From assembly GCF_963682185.1 (NCBI RefSeq), contig NZ_OY821667.1, positions 2,492,501-2,556,500 on the forward strand: 64,000 nucleotides of DNA. Reading direction: 5' to 3'. Positions within the stretch are counted from its first letter, which is position 1, and every line of letters begins with the position of its first letter. This document shows, in pieces, positions 12,081-23,484 of this stretch. The notes under the pieces were generated by a model. It made no database searches and was not told the DNA's origin. It was given only the letters and a program-made list of their open reading frames with translations. The stretch comes from an uncultured Cohaesibacter sp. (GTDB taxonomy: Bacteria > Pseudomonadota > Alphaproteobacteria > Rhizobiales > Cohaesibacteraceae). Position numbers and translations under genes: made by a program.

Positions 12081-12099
12081 AATGGTGCCGCTGATAGGA
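12081..12099. repeat. distal attachment site of the tRNA-Thr island (attR-like)
   Basis: These 19 bases are identical to 23407-23425, which cover the 3' end of tRNA-Thr including its encoded CCA and three bases beyond. A tRNA 3'-end copy about 11.3 kb away, with integrase remains next to the tRNA, is the classic mark of tyrosine-recombinase integration. Confidence 0.85.
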
Positions 12100-13310: not shown

Positions 13311-13604
13311 TCACAAAAGATCTTTATACTTGAGGGGCCGCCGTGCAGACCGGTAGACGCGCAGGATATAGACTGTATCGCGCCAAACATGATAAGGGAC
13401 GACATATCCGTATTTCGGAACTACAATCTCGCGAACATCTTCATGCGGGGTCGCCCTCCCGATATCGACATTGTCAGCGATTTGCCTGATGCTTCGTTCC
13501 AATTCCGATAAAACATTCCTTAGGCCCGCAGGAGATCTGGAAGCCAGATATTCCCGCAATTCCTCCAAGTCACCAATAGCGCCGGATGTGAATTCAATCT
13601 TCAT
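13311..13604 (-). CDS. ParE/RelE-family toxin
   Basis: Type II toxin of 97 residues, the size of ParE/RelE proteins. Family features: N-terminal MKIEFTSGAIGDLEELREYL helix-turn region, a central R-rich part, and a C-terminal VVPYHVWRDTVYILRVYRSAR strand block. ParE members poison DNA gyrase and RelE members cleave mRNA; the sequence leans to ParE but does not settle it. Its ATG overlaps the antitoxin stop by four bases (ATGA), so the pair is translationally coupled. On an island such pairs usually stabilise inheritance. Confidence 0.88.
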   Translation of the reverse strand: MKIEFTSGAIGDLEELREYLASRSPAGLRNVLSELERSIRQIADNVDIGRATPHEDVREIVVPKYGYVVPYHVWRDTVYILRVYRSARRPLKYKDLL

Positions 13605-13891
13605 AGGGCTTTCTTAATCTCATCGAGATGCCCATCGAACGATGTTTCTTCATCTGTGCCCCAGCCCTTTATCCAATCGAAGACCTGGTCAGCAGGATAG
13701 GTTGGATCACTGCGAATTGAAGCCACCGCTTCATCGAGCTCTGCATAATAGCGCTCATAATCGGAAATGTAGCGTTCAACAGCTCTATCGATCAATTGCG
13801 ACCGCGATCGCTTGGTTCGCACTGCCAGATCTTCTAGCTTCCGCTGATTTTCTTCCTGCAGACGAATTGTAGTAGGCTTTGCCAGTCCCAT
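13601..13891 (-). CDS. ribbon-helix-helix antitoxin (CopG/ParD-like)
   Basis: Protein of 96 residues from the ATG at 13891; an in-frame TTG eight codons earlier is less likely because GGAG lies 9 bases before the ATG. The N-terminus KPTTIRLQEENQRKLEDLA followed by SRSQLIDRAVERYI is a ribbon-helix-helix DNA-binding fold, and the acidic C-terminal half (DWIKGWGTDEET) should wrap and neutralise the toxin. It lies directly upstream of the toxin and behind a promoter overlapped by a perfect palindrome, consistent with autoregulation. Confidence 0.88.
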   Translation of the reverse strand: MGLAKPTTIRLQEENQRKLEDLAVRTKRSRSQLIDRAVERYISDYERYYAELDEAVASIRSDPTYPADQVFDWIKGWGTDEETSFDGHLDEIKKAL

Positions 13892-13915
13892 TATTTCGAC
13901 TCCGTTCAAAGACAA

Positions 13916-14810: not shown

Positions 14811-14827
14811 TCTTTTAGGAGGAGTTA

Positions 14828-15190
14828 ATGGGAAGTACCGGATCCGGCATTTTTTCAGATTGTTCGGGCTCGCGGAACAATGACGGAACAGGAGGAACCA
14901 GCGGGGTCGATCGTTGTCGACAGGCTTTCTCATGTTCTCTTGAAGAGATAGAGCTGTGTGATTACTTCAAAACGCGTGCTGCCTTGCCCCCTGTTGGAAC
15001 TGAGTTGGTGATCGTACACCAAAAGCGTCTTTTTGCTGCCACTCAGCAGGGTGTAAAAGTTGGAGCATTACCTACCAGCTTTAATTATCTCGCAGCCTGC
15101 ATGAAGGACGGTCTTTCCTATGTAGGCGTCGTTACGGCTTCCACGATATTGCCAATACCATTGGTATCTGCGGACTTCACAGCTCAGTGA
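14828..15190 (+). CDS. small protein with MGSTGSG N-terminus, candidate modification substrate
   Basis: A protein of 120 residues with an excellent ribosome site (AGGAGGAG, 3 bases before the ATG). Residues 1-28 are Gly/Ser/Asn-rich and probably disordered, beginning MGSTGSG, so methionine removal would expose an N-terminal Gly. Residues 29-115 look folded: DRCRQAFSCSLEEIELCDYF, PPVGTELVIVHQKRLFA, then VGALPTSFNYLAACMKDGLSYVG. I do not recognise a named family. It is first in a four-gene run with a kinase/deoxyribosyltransferase, a QueC-like enzyme and a DNA-glycosylase-like protein. QatB, partner of QueC-like QatC in the Qat system, also has a short Gly/Ser-rich start, so this protein may be what the QueC-like enzyme modifies; that is inference. 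Confidence 0.75.
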   Translation: MGSTGSGIFSDCSGSRNNDGTGGTSGVDRCRQAFSCSLEEIELCDYFKTRAALPPVGTELVIVHQKRLFAATQQGVKVGALPTSFNYLAACMKDGLSYVGVVTASTILPIPLVSADFTAQ

Positions 15191-15199
15191 GTATCTTAC

Positions 15200-16522
15200 A
15201 TGTTACCCCTATTGCTCGTCGGCGAGATCATTGTCGACTTCACTGCAGCCCGCCCCGGCGCCGAATGTAAGTTACGACTGGGTGGTATAGTTCACGCAGC
15301 TCGTGGGTTATGGGCAAGCAGCATTGATTATGCTGTTGCGGCTGTTTGCCCACATTATGTTGTTGATCAGGCAGAACGGTATCTCAACGCCCACGGGTGT
15401 CATGAATTTGTCTGGCTTGGAGAAGTAACCGGGGCTCCTGGTGTCATGGTGATAATTGACCCGACGGAAGTCGCTGATCAAGGATATGAGGATTTGCTCC
15501 GTGGTGAGAAAGAAATCACTATTCACGAAGTCGGGAATTCGCTAGATGCGTATCGAGAGGTTCTGATTTTTCCAGGAGACTTCGATCTCGCGCAGCTTCG
15601 AAGCGTCTTTTCTAGTCAGGCACGCTTCAGTTTCGATATAGCATATGACACGGAGGATCTGTCCGTTCTGGCGCCGTTTGAGGGCAGTATCAATTCAATC
15701 GTGATTTCTACGTCGTCTCCGCTCTTCATGCGCGTCGGATCAGAAAATATTGATGGTATGTTGCCTCTTATCGAAAAACTGGGTGCTGACGTTTTCCTCC
15801 TTAAAGAAAACCGGGGTGGGAGTCGTCTCTTCAACCTTTCAAACAGTTCTGTCGAAGCAATACCCGCTCAGTTGTCCGTCACGGTTAATTCCGTAGGAGT
15901 TGGCGATGTCTATACCGCCGTCATGGTTGGGTTGTCAGGGAGCTCATGGGAAGACGCCGCATGGAGGGGGGCCAGTGCTGCGACAGCCTATTCACAAACC
16001 ACCTATCCGGATGATTTCAAGCGGGAAGTAGAACGATCGTTCAGACTGTCAATAGATGAGCTACGCGATCTCGGAGGCACGATCTTGCCGTGGCACACAA
16101 GGCGACAGACTTCCATTTATCTGGCCGCTCCAGATTTTTCGTATATTGACAAACCTGAAATCGATCGGGCAATTGAAGCCCTGAGATACCACAATTTTGA
16201 TGTGAGACGCCCCATCAAGGAGAATGGCGAGCTTCCACTCGATAGCTCGGACGCTGTTTTAAGACAGACATTCTCTAAAGATCTTCGTATTCTTGACGAG
16301 TGTGCGGTCGTGTTTGCTGTTCCACTGGGTAGAGATCCGGGAACCTTGGTTGAGATGGGCTACGCCGTTGCAAGGAAGCTGCCAGTTATTACGTTCGATC
16401 CACGCGGTGAAAACCATAACACAATGGTCGTCGGCGGAAGCGTTTGCTATTCTGATAACCTGGATCAATGCTTGAACGGCCTGTTCGAAGCCGTTTCCAA
16501 ACTCTGGATGGCACAGCAATGA
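15200..16522 (+). CDS. PfkB-type kinase / nucleoside 2-deoxyribosyltransferase fusion
   Basis: Protein of 440 residues with two parts. Residues 1-285 resemble a PfkB/ribokinase domain: VGEIIVDF at the start, PGDFDL near 125, and the GVGD anion-hole/catalytic motif at 233-236 (usually GAGD). Residues 300-440 resemble nucleoside 2-deoxyribosyltransferase: IYLAAPDF at 306-313, DEC at 366-368, and GRDPGTLVEMGYA at 378-390 with the candidate nucleophile Glu385. Known activities of the two families are nucleoside or sugar phosphorylation and exchange of bases on deoxyribosides; together they suggest processing of a (deoxy)nucleoside or modified base. Its stop overlaps the next start (ATGA), so the two are co-translated. 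Confidence 0.82.
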   Translation: MLPLLLVGEIIVDFTAARPGAECKLRLGGIVHAARGLWASSIDYAVAAVCPHYVVDQAERYLNAHGCHEFVWLGEVTGAPGVMVIIDPTEVADQGYEDLLRGEKEITIHEVGNSLDAYREVLIFPGDFDLAQLRSVFSSQARFSFDIAYDTEDLSVLAPFEGSINSIVISTSSPLFMRVGSENIDGMLPLIEKLGADVFLLKENRGGSRLFNLSNSSVEAIPAQLSVTVNSVGVGDVYTAVMVGLSGSSWEDAAWRGASAATAYSQTTYPDDFKREVERSFRLSIDELRDLGGTILPWHTRRQTSIYLAAPDFSYIDKPEIDRAIEALRYHNFDVRRPIKENGELPLDSSDAVLRQTFSKDLRILDECAVVFAVPLGRDPGTLVEMGYAVARKLPVITFDPRGENHNTMVVGGSVCYSDNLDQCLNGLFEAVSKLWMAQQ

Positions 16523-17160
16523 AAAAAGCGGTTCTTCTTGCTTCGGGCGGCCTTGACTCAACTACCGTCGCTTATGGTCTATTCGCAGATGGTATCGATG
16601 TGTTTCCTCTATTCTTTGACTACGGCCAGCACTGTGTCGAGACGGAATGGGGCAGGGTCAACGAAGTTCTACCGCGCGACATGAGAAGCCCCGAACGCTG
16701 TGATATTTCTGATATTTTCAAAGGATCTACATCTCGCCTTATAAAGGAAGCAAACCTTTGGGAAGACAATGTCGCTGACGACGATTTGTACGTGCCATAT
16801 CGGACGCTGCTATTCTTCGCGGCGGCGGCGGCTCGGGCCCAGACGCTGGGTATTTTTGATGTTTATACGGGTTTCATTAATAGTAACCACGCCAAGGAAA
16901 TTGACTGCACAGCCGAGTTCATGAATCAAATGGACGGCTTGATCGATAATATCGGTCCTGTCCGTTTCACCTCTCCATTCCGCTTTTCATCAAAAACCAC
17001 TGTTGTCGAGGAGGCGCTGCGTCGCGGTGTTCCTATCGGCCGCACATTTTCGTGCCAAGCTGCAAGCGATTTCCCCTGTGGGGCCTGCCCGAATTGCGTT
17101 GAGCGCCTTCATGCGTTAAAGGATGCTGCTGTCGTAATCTCTAAAGCTCAGGTCGACTAA
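16519..17160 (+). CDS. QueC-like 7-deazaguanine PP-loop enzyme
   Basis: Protein of 213 residues starting at the ATG that overlaps the upstream stop. PP-loop SGGLDS at 9-14, the YVPYRT block at 91-96 (canonical YVPFRN) and four zinc-ligand cysteines at 179, 187, 190 and 193 (SC...PCGACPNC) match QueC, which converts carboxy-deazaguanine to the cyano form through an amide in queuosine synthesis. The usual YPDCRPEF block is replaced by EIDCTAEF, and no queD, queE or queF is nearby, so housekeeping queuosine synthesis is unlikely. QueC-like proteins serve as Cap9 in type IV CBASS and QatC in Qat. I infer a specialised deazaguanine-conjugating or base-modifying role here. Confidence 0.85.
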   Translation: MKKAVLLASGGLDSTTVAYGLFADGIDVFPLFFDYGQHCVETEWGRVNEVLPRDMRSPERCDISDIFKGSTSRLIKEANLWEDNVADDDLYVPYRTLLFFAAAAARAQTLGIFDVYTGFINSNHAKEIDCTAEFMNQMDGLIDNIGPVRFTSPFRFSSKTTVVEEALRRGVPIGRTFSCQAASDFPCGACPNCVERLHALKDAAVVISKAQVD

Positions 17161-17161
17161 A

Positions 17162-17812
17162 ATGCATTCTTCTGCGATACATATGCTAGTTTCTGCTCGT
17201 CGCGTGGCGAATTACGCCCTTGAGGTCGGAGCCGATATCAACGGAGAGGCGATTCGCCCCTCTTGCCAGCATATGGGTGCCATCGTAGCGGACTGCATTC
17301 TGCAGGCGGGCCTAAATTACAGGTCCGTCGTTCTTCCTCGCGTCTCGGCTATTCTAGAGGACTTTCCCGGTCTTGATTGTACTTCCGAACTTGTAGCTCT
17401 CGTTGGGCGAGGAGAAACCGATCGCTTCCTAAACTGGGGCCATCACGAAAAAATCGATCGCTTCAACGCGCTTGTCGGCTTCCTGAGCGAGCGCTCTGTA
17501 GAGAATGCGGCTACTTTAAAGGATCATTTGCAAGAGGCATCCTTCGTAGACGCCTTGCTTGGCGTGAGGGGAGTAGGTCCGAAAACTATTGACTATATGC
17601 AATGCTTGGTTGGCATCGACTCTATTGCGGTAGACAGGCACGTGCGAACCTTTGCTAAACGTGTCGGCGTCGTTGAGGAAGATTACGATTTCCTAAAATC
17701 GGTCTTCTGCTATGCCGCCGACCTGCTGTCTGTATCCCGTCGTGAATTCGATGCTTGGGTTTGGCGATGGGAGACATCGGCAACCAACCCACAGCTAGGG
17801 TTTTCCTTCTAA
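17162..17812 (+). CDS. helix-hairpin-helix DNA glycosylase-like protein (OGG/EndoIII fold)
   Basis: Protein of 216 residues beginning one base after the QueC-like stop codon. The HhH motif GVRGVGPKTIDYM (134-146) has Lys141 where OGG1 keeps its Schiff-base lysine, and AVDRHVRTF supplies Asp158 at the conserved GPD aspartate. No iron-sulfur cysteine cluster follows, unlike EndoIII/MutY. The N-terminal half (DINGEAIRPSCQHMGAIVAD) is peculiar to this group. The family excises damaged or modified bases; an OGG-like protein also accompanies QueC in type IV CBASS (Cap11). It could act on a modified nucleobase made by its neighbours, or on phage DNA. Last gene of the + strand cassette. Confidence 0.82.
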   Translation: MHSSAIHMLVSARRVANYALEVGADINGEAIRPSCQHMGAIVADCILQAGLNYRSVVLPRVSAILEDFPGLDCTSELVALVGRGETDRFLNWGHHEKIDRFNALVGFLSERSVENAATLKDHLQEASFVDALLGVRGVGPKTIDYMQCLVGIDSIAVDRHVRTFAKRVGVVEEDYDFLKSVFCYAADLLSVSRREFDAWVWRWETSATNPQLGFSF

Positions 17813-17920: not shown

Positions 17921-19393
17921 TTAGATCGGCTTGAACATGCTCTCTGCAGAATCGGATCGGAGCCTCGCCCAAAACTCCACAGCATACCTATCCGTCATAC
18001 CAGCCACGAAATCGCAAATATGGCGCGCCTTCAGAGCCTCGTCACCTGCGTCTTGTACCTGTTTGCGCACGTCATCGGGCATAAGCAAATAACCATTTTC
18101 TTTTTGAAGAGCATCGAAAATGTCGCTAACGAGCTCGGTTCCGCGATACTCGCCGAGCTTGACACGGTTCGAGTGAATGGTTGACAAATAGGTATATTGT
18201 TTGAGAATTTCGACCTTAACCCTCGTCTCTTGGTCCAGCTTTGCAATTGACAGCGCCGGAAACTCGGCATTGATTGACAAAGTGACGTCATTGATAAACT
18301 CATGGACCAATTCCGATGATAGCTGCATCCTTTTGCCGGCATCCATATTGAGATCGCGAGAAGCTCTCATCGCATGTATAAAGTTTGCGATGTGCTGCTG
18401 CTGGCGCTCGTCGTCGTTGTCATCATGCGAAGTCTTTTGTTTGACATCGACGACTTGGGGTTCATCACCCAATTGCTTTGATTCCTCTGTTGCAAATATG
18501 TCGCTGAAGATGGCAACAAACGTGGCCTGAACATCGTCCTTGTCTACGGTTCTATCTATCCCTGCCTTATTCAGCTCCTTGTTCACGTCCGCCGCAACCA
18601 ATGCCGCCATTTCATCGTCGGTCGATAATATAGAAGCTGGCGTGAGAAAGCCTGCCTTGAGGCTGTCCTCTAGATCGTAAACCGAGTAAGCGATATCGTC
18701 CGCGATATCCATGATCGCGCATTCGACTGTCTTGAACTTGCTCCCTTTAGGTGGCTCCTGTACTCCAAGCACTTTGCATTTTATTTCATCCACGATCTCA
18801 GCTTCGGAGGCGTAGTACCCTTTTTGTAGTTTTGCGCCCGCTGGCCGACTGATAGCTATCTCCTCGTCATATTTCAAAATAGCAGCCAATGTCCGAAAGC
18901 AAAGATTCATGCCTGCGCGCAAATCGCCACCTTTTGGCGTTTTGTATTGAGCCTTTTTCTCAAGGCGGCTCAGAATACGAAGTGTCTGGGCGTTGCCTTC
19001 GAACCCTCCATACTTCTTCATTTTTTCGTCGAGAGCGCGTTCGCCGTTGTGGCCGAACGGTGGATGACCGATATCGTGAACGAGGCCTGCCGCCGCGCAA
19101 AGCCTGCTGTCAATTTTTTTCTCGCCTAGCTGCTCTTCGTAGATATGATTTAGACGGTCTGCGATTCCTTCAGCGATTTGCGCAACTTCAAGCGAGTGTG
19201 TAAGTCGATTACGGAAGAAGTCTGACTCATGTCCTGGGAAGACTTGGGTTTTTCCTTGCAGCCGCCTGAAGCTTGCACTGTGAATAATTCGACCGTAATC
19301 ACGAACAAAAGCGGGCCGCCAGGGATCAGGCTCCTCAATCTCTCCGTTCTGACGGTGAAAATCTTGTTTGCTGTACATCTTTTTGGACATCAT
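17921..19393 (-). CDS. HD-domain deoxynucleoside triphosphate triphosphohydrolase (dGTPase family)
   Basis: Protein of 490 residues that should hydrolyse dNTPs to deoxynucleoside and tripolyphosphate. Visible: YGRIIHSASFRRLQGKTQVF (33-52), RNRLTHSLEV with metal-ligand His66, and VHDIGHPPFGHNGE with the HD pair at 106-107 and His115. Lengths of 440-500 are normal. Such enzymes are known antiviral effectors that deplete dNTPs during phage infection, and SAMHD1 is the human analogue. It converges on the QueC-like cassette and follows a 48-residue gene by eight bases without a good ribosome site of its own, implying coupled translation. Starts at 19393, 19390 or 19378 are all possible. Confidence 0.9.
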   Translation of the reverse strand: MMSKKMYSKQDFHRQNGEIEEPDPWRPAFVRDYGRIIHSASFRRLQGKTQVFPGHESDFFRNRLTHSLEVAQIAEGIADRLNHIYEEQLGEKKIDSRLCAAAGLVHDIGHPPFGHNGERALDEKMKKYGGFEGNAQTLRILSRLEKKAQYKTPKGGDLRAGMNLCFRTLAAILKYDEEIAISRPAGAKLQKGYYASEAEIVDEIKCKVLGVQEPPKGSKFKTVECAIMDIADDIAYSVYDLEDSLKAGFLTPASILSTDDEMAALVAADVNKELNKAGIDRTVDKDDVQATFVAIFSDIFATEESKQLGDEPQVVDVKQKTSHDDNDDERQQQHIANFIHAMRASRDLNMDAGKRMQLSSELVHEFINDVTLSINAEFPALSIAKLDQETRVKVEILKQYTYLSTIHSNRVKLGEYRGTELVSDIFDALQKENGYLLMPDDVRKQVQDAGDEALKARHICDFVAGMTDRYAVEFWARLRSDSAESMFKPI

Positions 19394-19639: not shown

Positions 19640-21043
19640 CTATCGTTCGTTGACACGAGCTGGGACACCCGCCTTACGCAAAACATCTGCAAGATGGCTA
19701 GTCAGCCCGATTTTACGATCGAGGACAATGCCCGTGTTTGGTTTCAAATTGGCGGAAAGCAACCTTAGAGCTTCCAGTCCCTGAGACACGTCGAAGCCCA
19801 CCCATTCACTTGCATCTCCTGGCACAATGGTATCGCCGTTCGATACGCTAGCTCCACTATGCAGCTGGACGATCCAAAGTTCAGTCCCGTCAAAGACCCA
19901 TTCAAACCTCGTCGCGCCAAGAATTCCGCGTAGTCGGCCATGAACTTCACGCACGCGCGAAAGAACGCGTTCGGGAACCGGTTCGGGGTTCGCCAGTCCA
20001 ACCATGAAGCGGTCCCCGGTCCCTTTGATGCCCTCGACCACGAGGTCTCCACTTGACGTCTCGATAGCAGCGCCTGACCATTGAGCCGCTACGCCTTTCT
20101 GGGCAAGTACTGAAGAAATTGCGGTACCGTCTGGATCCTCGCGCTGCAGTAAGGCGAACGGATCTTGCCACCCCCGCGCAGTGGTGAACTTTCCGGGTAC
20201 CTGCTCACGCGGGCTCGTTCGTATCCAAATTTCCTCAAGGCCAGTTCCATGTCCAAATGAGAATGGCGCAACACGCCGGCCTATAACGGTTGTTTTGGGA
20301 ACGGAAAAGCCGCTCATATCGGCGATCAACAGCCCATAAGCTTTATCTCCGATCATACGACTGAAATCGTTTGGCCACTCTACCTTGATAGATCCAGTAG
20401 GAAAAAAGTCGTCGGAATGCTCCCAGAAGATCACATTATCCTGCTTCCAACCCCTAGGCCTAGGGTGCAGACTAAATTCAAGTCGTCCTTTTCGGCCTCC
20501 GGAGAAATCGACATCAATTCCATACACTGTCTTGAAAAGATGAATGGCCCACTCTGTCGGAAGTCGTGCGAAGCCAGGCTTTTCGACACCACGGGGTGTC
20601 ATGTCAGGCCGGAATTCGACAACGTCGCCCATCACAACACCTGATACACCTCCATCCGAAACATCGATCGTCTCGTTGACGATCGTGAACGCCCCTTCGT
20701 CAGTGAAGCGCTTAACCGCGTCGACAGCAGCATCGACATTGTCGATGCCATAGAGGAACTCCCTGCTTTGGGATTGATGAGCGCTGAAGCTGCGAACGTT
20801 AACCGTACCTTCGGAACTGCGCTCGAAAAGAGTCTGTATTGCCTCGGCAACTGATTCGAACTGATGATTCGCTTCGATATCAGCGATGCGGCAGAATTGC
20901 TGTACTGGCCCCTCTTCCGCCGGGGCAAAGCTGACGAACTGAGCGACGTTGAACGTTTCCGCCAACCTATCCAACGTTTTGTCTTTTCTGAAAGCCCATA
21001 CGTCTGGTTGATTAAATTTCTTGTGCGAACTGTTCAAAGTCAC
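19640..21043 (-). CDS. PEP-synthase-like protein with ATP-binding and phosphohistidine regions
   Basis: Protein of 467 residues. The first two thirds resemble the PEP/pyruvate-binding (ATP-grasp) domain of phosphoenolpyruvate synthase: a VRSFSAHQSQSREF block near 83-96, GVSGVVMGDVVEF near 133-145, and RFEWVFDGTELWIVQLHSG near 375-393 (compare EW..DG.L.ILQ). The last 50 residues contain GLTSHLADVLRKAGVPARV, like the TSH phosphohistidine motif of the PEP-utiliser swivelling domain. The usual C-terminal TIM barrel is absent, so another acceptor is phosphorylated or activated. The start is uncertain: GTG at 21043 abuts the AAGGAAG ribosome site, while the TTG two codons later (21037) has better spacing. 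Confidence 0.65.
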   Translation of the reverse strand: MTLNSSHKKFNQPDVWAFRKDKTLDRLAETFNVAQFVSFAPAEEGPVQQFCRIADIEANHQFESVAEAIQTLFERSSEGTVNVRSFSAHQSQSREFLYGIDNVDAAVDAVKRFTDEGAFTIVNETIDVSDGGVSGVVMGDVVEFRPDMTPRGVEKPGFARLPTEWAIHLFKTVYGIDVDFSGGRKGRLEFSLHPRPRGWKQDNVIFWEHSDDFFPTGSIKVEWPNDFSRMIGDKAYGLLIADMSGFSVPKTTVIGRRVAPFSFGHGTGLEEIWIRTSPREQVPGKFTTARGWQDPFALLQREDPDGTAISSVLAQKGVAAQWSGAAIETSSGDLVVEGIKGTGDRFMVGLANPEPVPERVLSRVREVHGRLRGILGATRFEWVFDGTELWIVQLHSGASVSNGDTIVPGDASEWVGFDVSQGLEALRLLSANLKPNTGIVLDRKIGLTSHLADVLRKAGVPARVNER

Positions 21044-22524: not shown

Positions 22525-23109
22525 TTACAGCAGCCGTCCTGCGGCTGCGTCGGTGAAGAGATCAGTGCTGCGGATATAGCGGTTGAGCGTGGTATCAGAC
22601 TTGTGGCCGGTGACTTGCCGGATCTTGAGGTTGGAGGCTCTTGCTGAGGTGGCAAAGCCCGCTCGGAGGGAATGGCCTGAGAAGGGCGTGGGATCATAGC
22701 CTGCATCTCTGAGGCGGACCTTGAGCATCTGTCTGACCGCTTCCCCCGAGATGCGGAGGTTGGAGATCTGACCATGCTTGTTGATGGCCGTGAAGATCGG
22801 GCCTTGGCTGATCCCCGCGAAGGTGAGCCAATCTTTGAGAGCGGTGACAGGACAATGGCGTGTGCGCCCGAAAGGAATGGCGACAGTGCGGCCCTGTCCT
22901 TCCTGATCAGTCTTGGATCTGCGGATAGTGATGAGAAGGCCCTTGTCGACGGCCTCTATGTCTTCTGCATTGAGTGCCACGATCTCGGAACGACGCATGC
23001 CCGCCGAGAAGCCAATGAGCAGGATGGCTCTGTCCCTGATATCCTTGGGTCTGTCTTTGAGAGGATCGAGAAGGACGAAGAGGTCATCTCTCAGGAGCGG
23101 CTTCTCCAT
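22525..23109 (-). pseudogene. tyrosine recombinase/integrase, catalytic half only
   Basis: The 194 residues contain the whole catalytic domain of a phage-type tyrosine recombinase: Arg in AGMRRSEI, the HSLRAG box, His in GHKS and the nucleophile Tyr in LNRYIRS. The N-terminal core-binding (SAM-like) domain of about 100 residues is missing. Upstream in the same frame is a DUF488 fragment, so the gene was joined to unrelated sequence at about 23110. It lies about 300 bases from tRNA-Thr, the standard position of an island integrase. It is unlikely to be active, so the island is probably fixed. Confidence 0.85.
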
Positions 23110-23334: not shown

Positions 23335-23408
23335 ATTTGTGACCAACAAGCTGTTAACAACCGCAGAAATCCCTAAGTTTGAGGGATTGTAAGGATTTAC
23401 GAGGGGAA

Positions 23409-23484
<76 letters not shown>

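Follow-up and report, generated by a model that had tools for sequence, protein, structure and literature searches.

Several bacterial systems built around a QueC-family enzyme have been described. A 2025 preprint reported that an immune protein is tagged by means of QueC (PMC11996544). In the type IV cyclic-oligonucleotide-based anti-phage signalling system (CBASS), the enzyme Cap9 tags the CD-NTase at Gly2, and defence by qatABCD requires Gly2 of QatB (PMC13279940). A further group, QueC Cluster 4, has a PfkB/PF05014 neighbour; purine salvage was proposed for it, and the word "glycosylase" does not occur in the main text (PMC13329287). Here we consider a four-gene cassette in a window of 64,000 nucleotides from an uncultured Cohaesibacter sp., the window being the whole stretch of DNA analysed, from whose first letter all coordinates are counted; the source genome is a single contig of 5.39 Mb. 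The first of the four open reading frames encodes a small protein of 120 amino acids (14828–15190). It is followed by a PfkB-like kinase fused to a nucleoside 2-deoxyribosyltransferase (DRT), 440 amino acids (15200–16522), a QueC-like PP-loop enzyme with Cap9-type motifs, 213 amino acids (16519–17160), and a predicted OGG-like HhH-GPD DNA glycosylase (17162–17812), all on the plus strand. These genes form a real, recurrent and distinct module on mobile DNA.

With an alignment of five PfkB-DRT proteins of the window's type, below called A-type, as the query against 84,980 species genomes, the scan yielded 59 genome loci and, together with nine loci from IMG/VR, 68 relatives. With profiles made from five seeds, the complete set of four was recognised in 61 of them (54 genome and seven IMG/VR loci), the order and strand being kept without exception, and hence the set is not a chance arrangement. 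The 61 loci are not deduplicated (the small proteins of L045, L046 and L085 are identical) and include L110, where the small gene is cut by a contig end and PfkB lies in two frames, L060, with OGG in two frames, and L057, whose small gene has no in-frame ATG. Four other loci (L087, L091, L104 and L106) are incomplete at or near a contig end. The first-pass annotation, made from the letters of the window, had suggested a distinct module; this stands, and the outcome that would have spoken against it, that the genes never co-occur elsewhere, is excluded by the profile matches. Judging from the record titles, the carriers are presumably Alpha-, Beta- and Gammaproteobacteria, Bacteroidota and one deltaproteobacterial metagenome-assembled genome (MAG). 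The nine IMG/VR contigs are putatively viral. In the plasmid collection, four records match the PfkB-DRT and the small protein, and the set is complete in all three that were opened; a search of the E. coli genomes with Proteus A-type DNA gave no match. Among the relatives with a species name, Cohaesibacter celericrescens (L044) is the nearest found, its PfkB-DRT being 96% identical. No description of the four-gene set, or of the C-type set considered below, was found among the titles and abstract starts listed by searches of the open-licence PMC library; the pfkB of PMC11676413 belongs to an unrelated kinase system.

On balance, though by a little only, we favour the reading that the cassette is a mobile system against phages with a QueC-family ligase at its centre, and this leaning covers the following mechanism as a whole. 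In the HIRAN-like small protein, removal of the methionine would expose a glycine as the N-terminus. The QueC-like enzyme, using ATP, would join a guanine-like nucleobase, not necessarily 7-carboxy-7-deazaguanine (CDG), to this glycine. The fused DRT and kinase would add deoxyribose, and perhaps phosphate, to the base or would prepare its precursor, and deoxyguanosine could come from the dGTPase next to the cassette. Through its HIRAN-like domain the tagged small protein would reach DNA ends; the OGG-like glycosylase would break or exchange an N-glycosidic bond in that DNA, so that phage replication stops. We infer the conjugation, all the chemistry that follows it and the protection against phages; the co-occurrence, the domain families, the motif residues, the invariant MG start and the mobile, defence-rich context are read from the sequences.

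The QueC-like enzyme of the window matches Pfam QueC with an E-value of 3.5e-28. Among its PDB profile matches Cap9 is the best (E 2.7e-16), with E. coli QueC nearly tied (3.8e-16). The motifs printed for Cap9 are YxQ(x)5E, CE(x)6CxxCxxC and PF(x)4K (PMC13329287). In 69 A-type QueC-like sequences (63 distinct), SGGxDS and the Cap9 variant YxQ(x)5E are present in all, C(x)7CxxCxxC in 68, and PF(x)4K in 66; the residue after the first cysteine is Q in 68, not E as in Cap9, and the RN of Cap9 is RT in the window enzyme. YxQxHxxE, VPxRN, C(x)8CxxCxxC and YxDC are each found in none of the 69, and in the control, the canonical QueC of 18 carriers, YPDC and VPxRN are seen in all 18 and YxQxHxxE in 17. 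Given this absence of the canonical motifs and a TIGR00364 score of 83 bits against the cut-off of 150, the assignment to canonical queuosine QueC is rejected. In the base pocket of Cap9, Y115 stacks on the deazaguanine, and an Asp reads the guanine edge (PMC13279940). The position of the stacking Tyr is occupied by Glu in all 69 A-type sequences, ExDC replacing YxDC, and the base-pocket Asp (D129) is kept in all of them. The start of the window enzyme is an internal ATG of a longer open reading frame, 16468–17160.

The small protein of the window has a Gly/Ser-rich tail beginning MGSTGSG, followed by a HIRAN-like domain. Each of the 60 distinct full-length small proteins with an ATG starts with MG, and 51 of them with MGS[ST]GSG (the truncated L110 was dropped; L057 and L092, lacking an ATG, were not counted, L092 reading VGSSGSG). 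The MG start is supported in the window, since AGGAGG, the likely ribosome-binding site (14817–14822, plus strand), is situated just 5' of the ATG. In the alignment of 52 small proteins, M1, G2, D11, C30 and several residues of the domain are invariant, and the Gly/Ser linker varies in length. In the AlphaFold2 model (mean pLDDT 80.0), the blocks of the tail, residues 1–30, score 47–55, and the tail is likely to be disordered; the domain scores about 90. The best 16 PDB matches of this model in Foldseek are chains of the human HLTF HIRAN domain and lp_0118 (E 1e-3 to 8e-3, probability 1.00, TM about 0.58), several of the HLTF entry titles naming DNA. Judged by its predicted fold, the small protein is thus HIRAN-like. 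HIRAN domains bind 3' DNA ends. By analogy, we think that this protein is the tagged partner of the QueC-like enzyme, because the cassette shows the arrangement that has been reported in type IV CBASS and suggested in Qat, a QueC-family enzyme next to a partner whose disordered tail starts with Gly (PMC13279940, PMC11996544). The idea of attachment to a partner had been put forward before: the invariant MG tail and the Cap9-type motifs agree with it, being expected if the N-terminus is modified, and the conjugation itself we infer.

The PfkB-DRT protein matches Nuc_deoxyrib_tr (PF05014) with E 2e-14, the PfkB match being weak (E 0.14). D236 of GxGD and D379, G381, T382 and E385 of DxGTxxE, residues that we take to have catalytic roles, show a conservation of at least 97% among 64 A-type and at least 85% among 16 B/C-type sequences. 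For the fourth protein there is no Pfam match; it matches OGG of PADLOC with E 6e-4 and the OGG chains of PDB, by profile, with E 2.5e-4. Its K141 and D158, presumably the catalytic Lys and Asp, are invariant among 25 aligned sequences, and the fold matches of its model (mean pLDDT 89.8) are HhH-GPD glycosylases, MagIII and MjOgg among them, so that by predicted structure it is an HhH-GPD glycosylase. The joint occurrence of QueC-like, base-exchange and glycosylase families would also suit a DNA-modification system, in which a modified base is put into the host DNA through exchange by the DRT or the OGG-like protein and marks self in the manner of dpd. We consider this quite improbable: DRTs act on free nucleosides, no dpd or restriction model matches the seven other proteins of the island, and the MG start is left unexplained.

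Next to the cassette is the gene of an HD-domain dGTPase (17921–19393, minus strand; PADLOC dGTPase, E 1e-123), convergent and 109 bases beyond the cassette. It is a recurrent, optional companion, seen in 13 of 73 A-type loci at most 0.9 kb from the cassette, on either side and on either strand, in flanks often shortened by contig ends. These loci fall in six of 35 clusters at 75% PfkB identity, including that of the window. Since each of nine genomes checked has only one to three dGTPase matches, some of them pieces or weak, repeated adjacency by chance is unlikely. The first-pass annotation had named neither this recurrent companion nor the HIRAN-like fold, and it did not mention that a pairing of PfkB-DRT with QueC is in print as Cluster 4 (PMC13329287).

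The flanks were compared, using PADLOC at 1e-10, in 18 genomes having both the cassette and canonical queC, with 138 of 140 proteins on the cassette side (two were dropped), 144 proteins on the queC side and L057 having one flank only. The families matched number 258 near the cassette vs 32 near canonical queC, a count of models, not genes, as many models overlap on one gene. Among the best 25 families of the cassette flanks are Types I, III and IV restriction, Kiwa, Septu and PDC models; in the control flanks, Dpd models, each with a single member, make up 18 of the best 25 families, and the mads and RtcR models are present in both. The dGTPase occurs at six of the 18 cassette loci and at none of the 18 control stretches. 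These surroundings, richer in matches to defence models than the controls, support the first-pass reading of a defence-type cassette.

Two kinds of relatives were found. The B-type is represented by 15 plasmid loci, whose PfkB-DRT is 25–29% identical to that of the window where the window query reached. In all 15, a Gly/Ser-tailed small protein is matched before the PfkB-DRT (nine are profile seeds, and in L120 the match is within a longer protein), and OGG is within the fetched stretch in 12 of the 15, in varying order. The companions include a dGTPase (4/15), an Mrr-type endonuclease and an adenine methylase; directly 3' of QueC, a nitroreductase-like gene is seen in L114 (6789–7478), L118 (6762–7433) and L119 (6827–7453), its product being above the Pfam cut-off in one of three scanned. 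Multiubiquitin, ThiF adenylyltransferase and DUF6527 genes adjoin B-type cassettes in Rhizobium and Synechocystis (L116, 7681–9978; L119, 1471–4279). The four B-type QueC sequences that were read fit the Cluster 4 motif CH(x)5CxxCxGCxK, and by sequence the B-type fits the published Cluster 4. Of 5426 E. coli genomes, 22 have a match to B-type DNA, and in 18 of them it covers at least 80% of the query. Two E. coli B-type loci with a dGTPase (L145, 14001–20069; L146, 14001–20068) are situated in an integrase-triplet island beside ssb1/uvrA. The cargo differs: one island has a helicase/nuclease pair, which we take to be perhaps Gabija-like, and the other has response-regulator genes. A tblastn search of phage records with the B-type PfkB-DRT gave only partial matches to the DRT (12 records, none covering 80%).

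The C-type comprises four plasmid loci of Rhizobium, Agrobacterium and Neorhizobium (L123 and L142–L144), forming two near-identical pairs. The gene order is PfkB, TIR-TGT fusion, OGG, QueC, TIR (L123, 4953–9364; L143, 6001–10401), and a ThsB-like TIR protein beginning MGGG is encoded beside QueC in all four. No DRT domain was seen in the three C-type PfkB proteins scanned, and L123 lacks the DRT motif; the TGT is above the Pfam cut-off in two of three scanned, and the TIR-TGT frame is broken in L142. By analogy, we read the A-, B- and C-types as QueC-based systems modifying the N-terminus of a partner.

The conservation of the DRT and kinase motif residues would be expected, too, if the QueC-like enzyme and the PfkB-DRT made or recycled a small molecule in purine or deoxynucleoside salvage, the small protein being a regulator or carrier. 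Purine salvage has been published as a proposal for the Cluster 4 PfkB partner, and so for the B-type pair (PMC13329287). We find this doubtful for the cassette, as it leaves too much unexplained: the invariant MG start, the OGG-like protein, the HIRAN-like fold, the dGTPase, the TIR of the C-type, the carriage on islands and plasmids, and the defence models in the flanks.

Several points weigh against the anti-phage system proposed here. In three of the 68 loci (L095, L101 and L102) the set is incomplete within the contig, only remnants being left. The enrichment of overlapping PADLOC models could be passive island company. The HIRAN match is one of predicted fold, with none at E 0.001 or better and no Pfam match, and the B-type tails begin with MS, not MG (of 11 read, ten have MSG and one MSS). 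The ligation is argued by analogy, and the roles given to the DRT, the kinase, the OGG-like protein and the dGTPase are guesses from family chemistry. Finally, the supply of the base has to be considered. QueC, QueD and QueE were searched for in 52 genomes, namely the window's own (G000), G002 and those of 50 of the 59 loci (L046, L083, L084, L085, L087, L091, L095, L101 and L102 were left out). Canonical QueC is over the cut-off in 29 of the 52, and a QueE match (TIGR04322, E 1e-3 or better) is seen in 30 (58%). Both are undetected in 15 to 20 carriers: 20 by TIGR04322, and 15 if the weak partial TIGR03365 matches in G498, G500, G506, G516 and G531, which resemble other radical-SAM proteins, are counted as QueE. 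Some carriers are MAGs, so that part of the absence may be missing sequence; the QueE models fire in eight and ten of 14 control genomes, not all of which need carry QueE. The own genome (99.84% complete) has one QueD-family PTPS and a TGT, and no QueC above the TIGR00364 cut-off; the two QueE models and a single protein query, the query being run without a positive control, gave no QueE in it.

Because 15 to 20 of the 52 carriers lack QueE and canonical QueC, the QueC-like enzyme probably does not have CDG as its general substrate; CDG that is salvaged, or made by a phage, may be used nevertheless. The carriers without the pathway and the loss of the stacking Tyr together argue against CDG as the base. 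The suggestion of the first-pass annotation that the module makes or uses a deazaguanine is therefore weak and, as worded there, not supported, the own genome being among those with neither gene detected. The same carriers, in which the base-pocket D129 is nevertheless kept, might be accounted for if CDG appeared only on infection, made by the phage, and were loaded on the small protein as a sensor, the OGG-like protein attacking the modified DNA; some phages do make deazaguanine DNA (PMC6884629). This alternative seems unlikely to us, as CDG should be constantly made in the 29 carriers with canonical QueC and the 30 with a QueE match, and as the Tyr that stacks on CDG is absent.

The cassette is on an island of 11.3 kb between two perfect copies of an att-like 19-bp repeat, a distal one at 12081–12099 and a proximal one at 23407–23425 (both plus strand), the latter at the 3' end of tRNA-Thr (CGT; 23409–23484, minus strand), the integration site. 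A search for the att site by tRNA motif had no result; the repeat came from other searches. The island encodes a phage-integrase-family protein of 194 amino acids (22525–23109, minus strand; PF00589, E 8e-17). The coordinates, the repeat and the tRNA confirm the initial description of four co-directional genes on a tRNA-borne island, separated by a 9-base gap, an ATGA overlap (16519–16522) and a 1-base gap. The same island has a ParE-like toxin gene with a ribbon-helix-helix partner (13311–13915, minus strand). A 467-residue protein (19640–21043, minus strand) has no Pfam or PADLOC match; by eye we take it to resemble slightly the N-terminal part of phosphoenolpyruvate synthase. A PADLOC scan of seven other island proteins gave nothing except the dGTPase, and a Pfam scan of the seven gave no CD-NTase, TGT, Qat ATPase or TatD, in agreement with what had been noted at first sight.

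If the proposed mechanism is true, the tagging chemistry of QueC is wider than CDG, and the predicted substrate of 120 residues is a small test case. The cassette also suggests that the genes to which purine salvage has been ascribed in the literature serve in defence, and that TGT and deoxyribosyltransferase may stand in for each other in a common scheme.

Type IV CBASS, whose Cap11 is OGG-like, has in common with the cassette the Cap9-type QueC motifs, an OGG-like gene and a partner with a Gly-start tail. Unlike type IV CBASS, the island has no CD-NTase or Cap10 TGT-like protein among the Pfam and PADLOC matches of the proteins scanned, and the cassette has a DRT-kinase for the TGT, a HIRAN-like partner, and Glu for Tyr in the base pocket. 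Hence membership in type IV CBASS is rejected, in spite of the Cap9 motifs, on the lack of the CD-NTase, Cap10 and YxDC. With qatABCD the cassette shares a QueC-family enzyme and a partner with a disordered tail and a conserved MG start (PMC13279940). However, its 213-residue enzyme lacks the extensions of QatC (NCBIfam QatC, 17.5 bits vs the cut-off of 280), no QatA ATPase or QatD TatD nuclease is seen in the island proteins scanned, and the fold of QatB is all-helical (PMC13279940), not HIRAN-like as predicted here. Membership in Qat is rejected on the extensions, QatA and QatD. As in Cluster 4, the PfkB-DRT adjoins the QueC-like gene, but the A-type has CQ(x)6CxxCxxC and the window enzyme lacks CH(x)5CxxCxGCxK, so that it is not assigned to this cluster; in the B-type, the gene order and the extra genes vary. 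As in the anti-phage dGTPases and Clover (PMC12265719), an HD dGTPase occurs in a defence setting, but here it is an optional neighbour, not a core component.

The C-type has PfkB, OGG and QueC together with a Gly-start protein, as does the window cassette; it differs in the TIR-TGT fusion, in the MGGG TIR protein replacing the HIRAN-like one, and in the PfkB, without a DRT domain in the three scanned. Apart from a TIR standing where the CD-NTase would be, its parts list comes close to that of type IV CBASS. One may go further and, as a speculation to which we give rather little credence, group type IV CBASS, Qat, the HIRAN-type A and B cassettes and the TIR-type C cassette in one immunity superfamily. 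In it, a QueC ligase would put a nucleobase, other than CDG in the window's branch, on the N-terminus of a swappable sensor (CD-NTase, QatB, HIRAN or TIR), a swappable TGT or deoxyribosyltransferase would convert this base to a nucleoside or nucleotide attached to the protein and able to be linked to nucleic acid or read against it, and OGG would be an eraser or exchanger. If the model favoured for the cassette is right, it would work, by analogy, like type IV CBASS and Qat.

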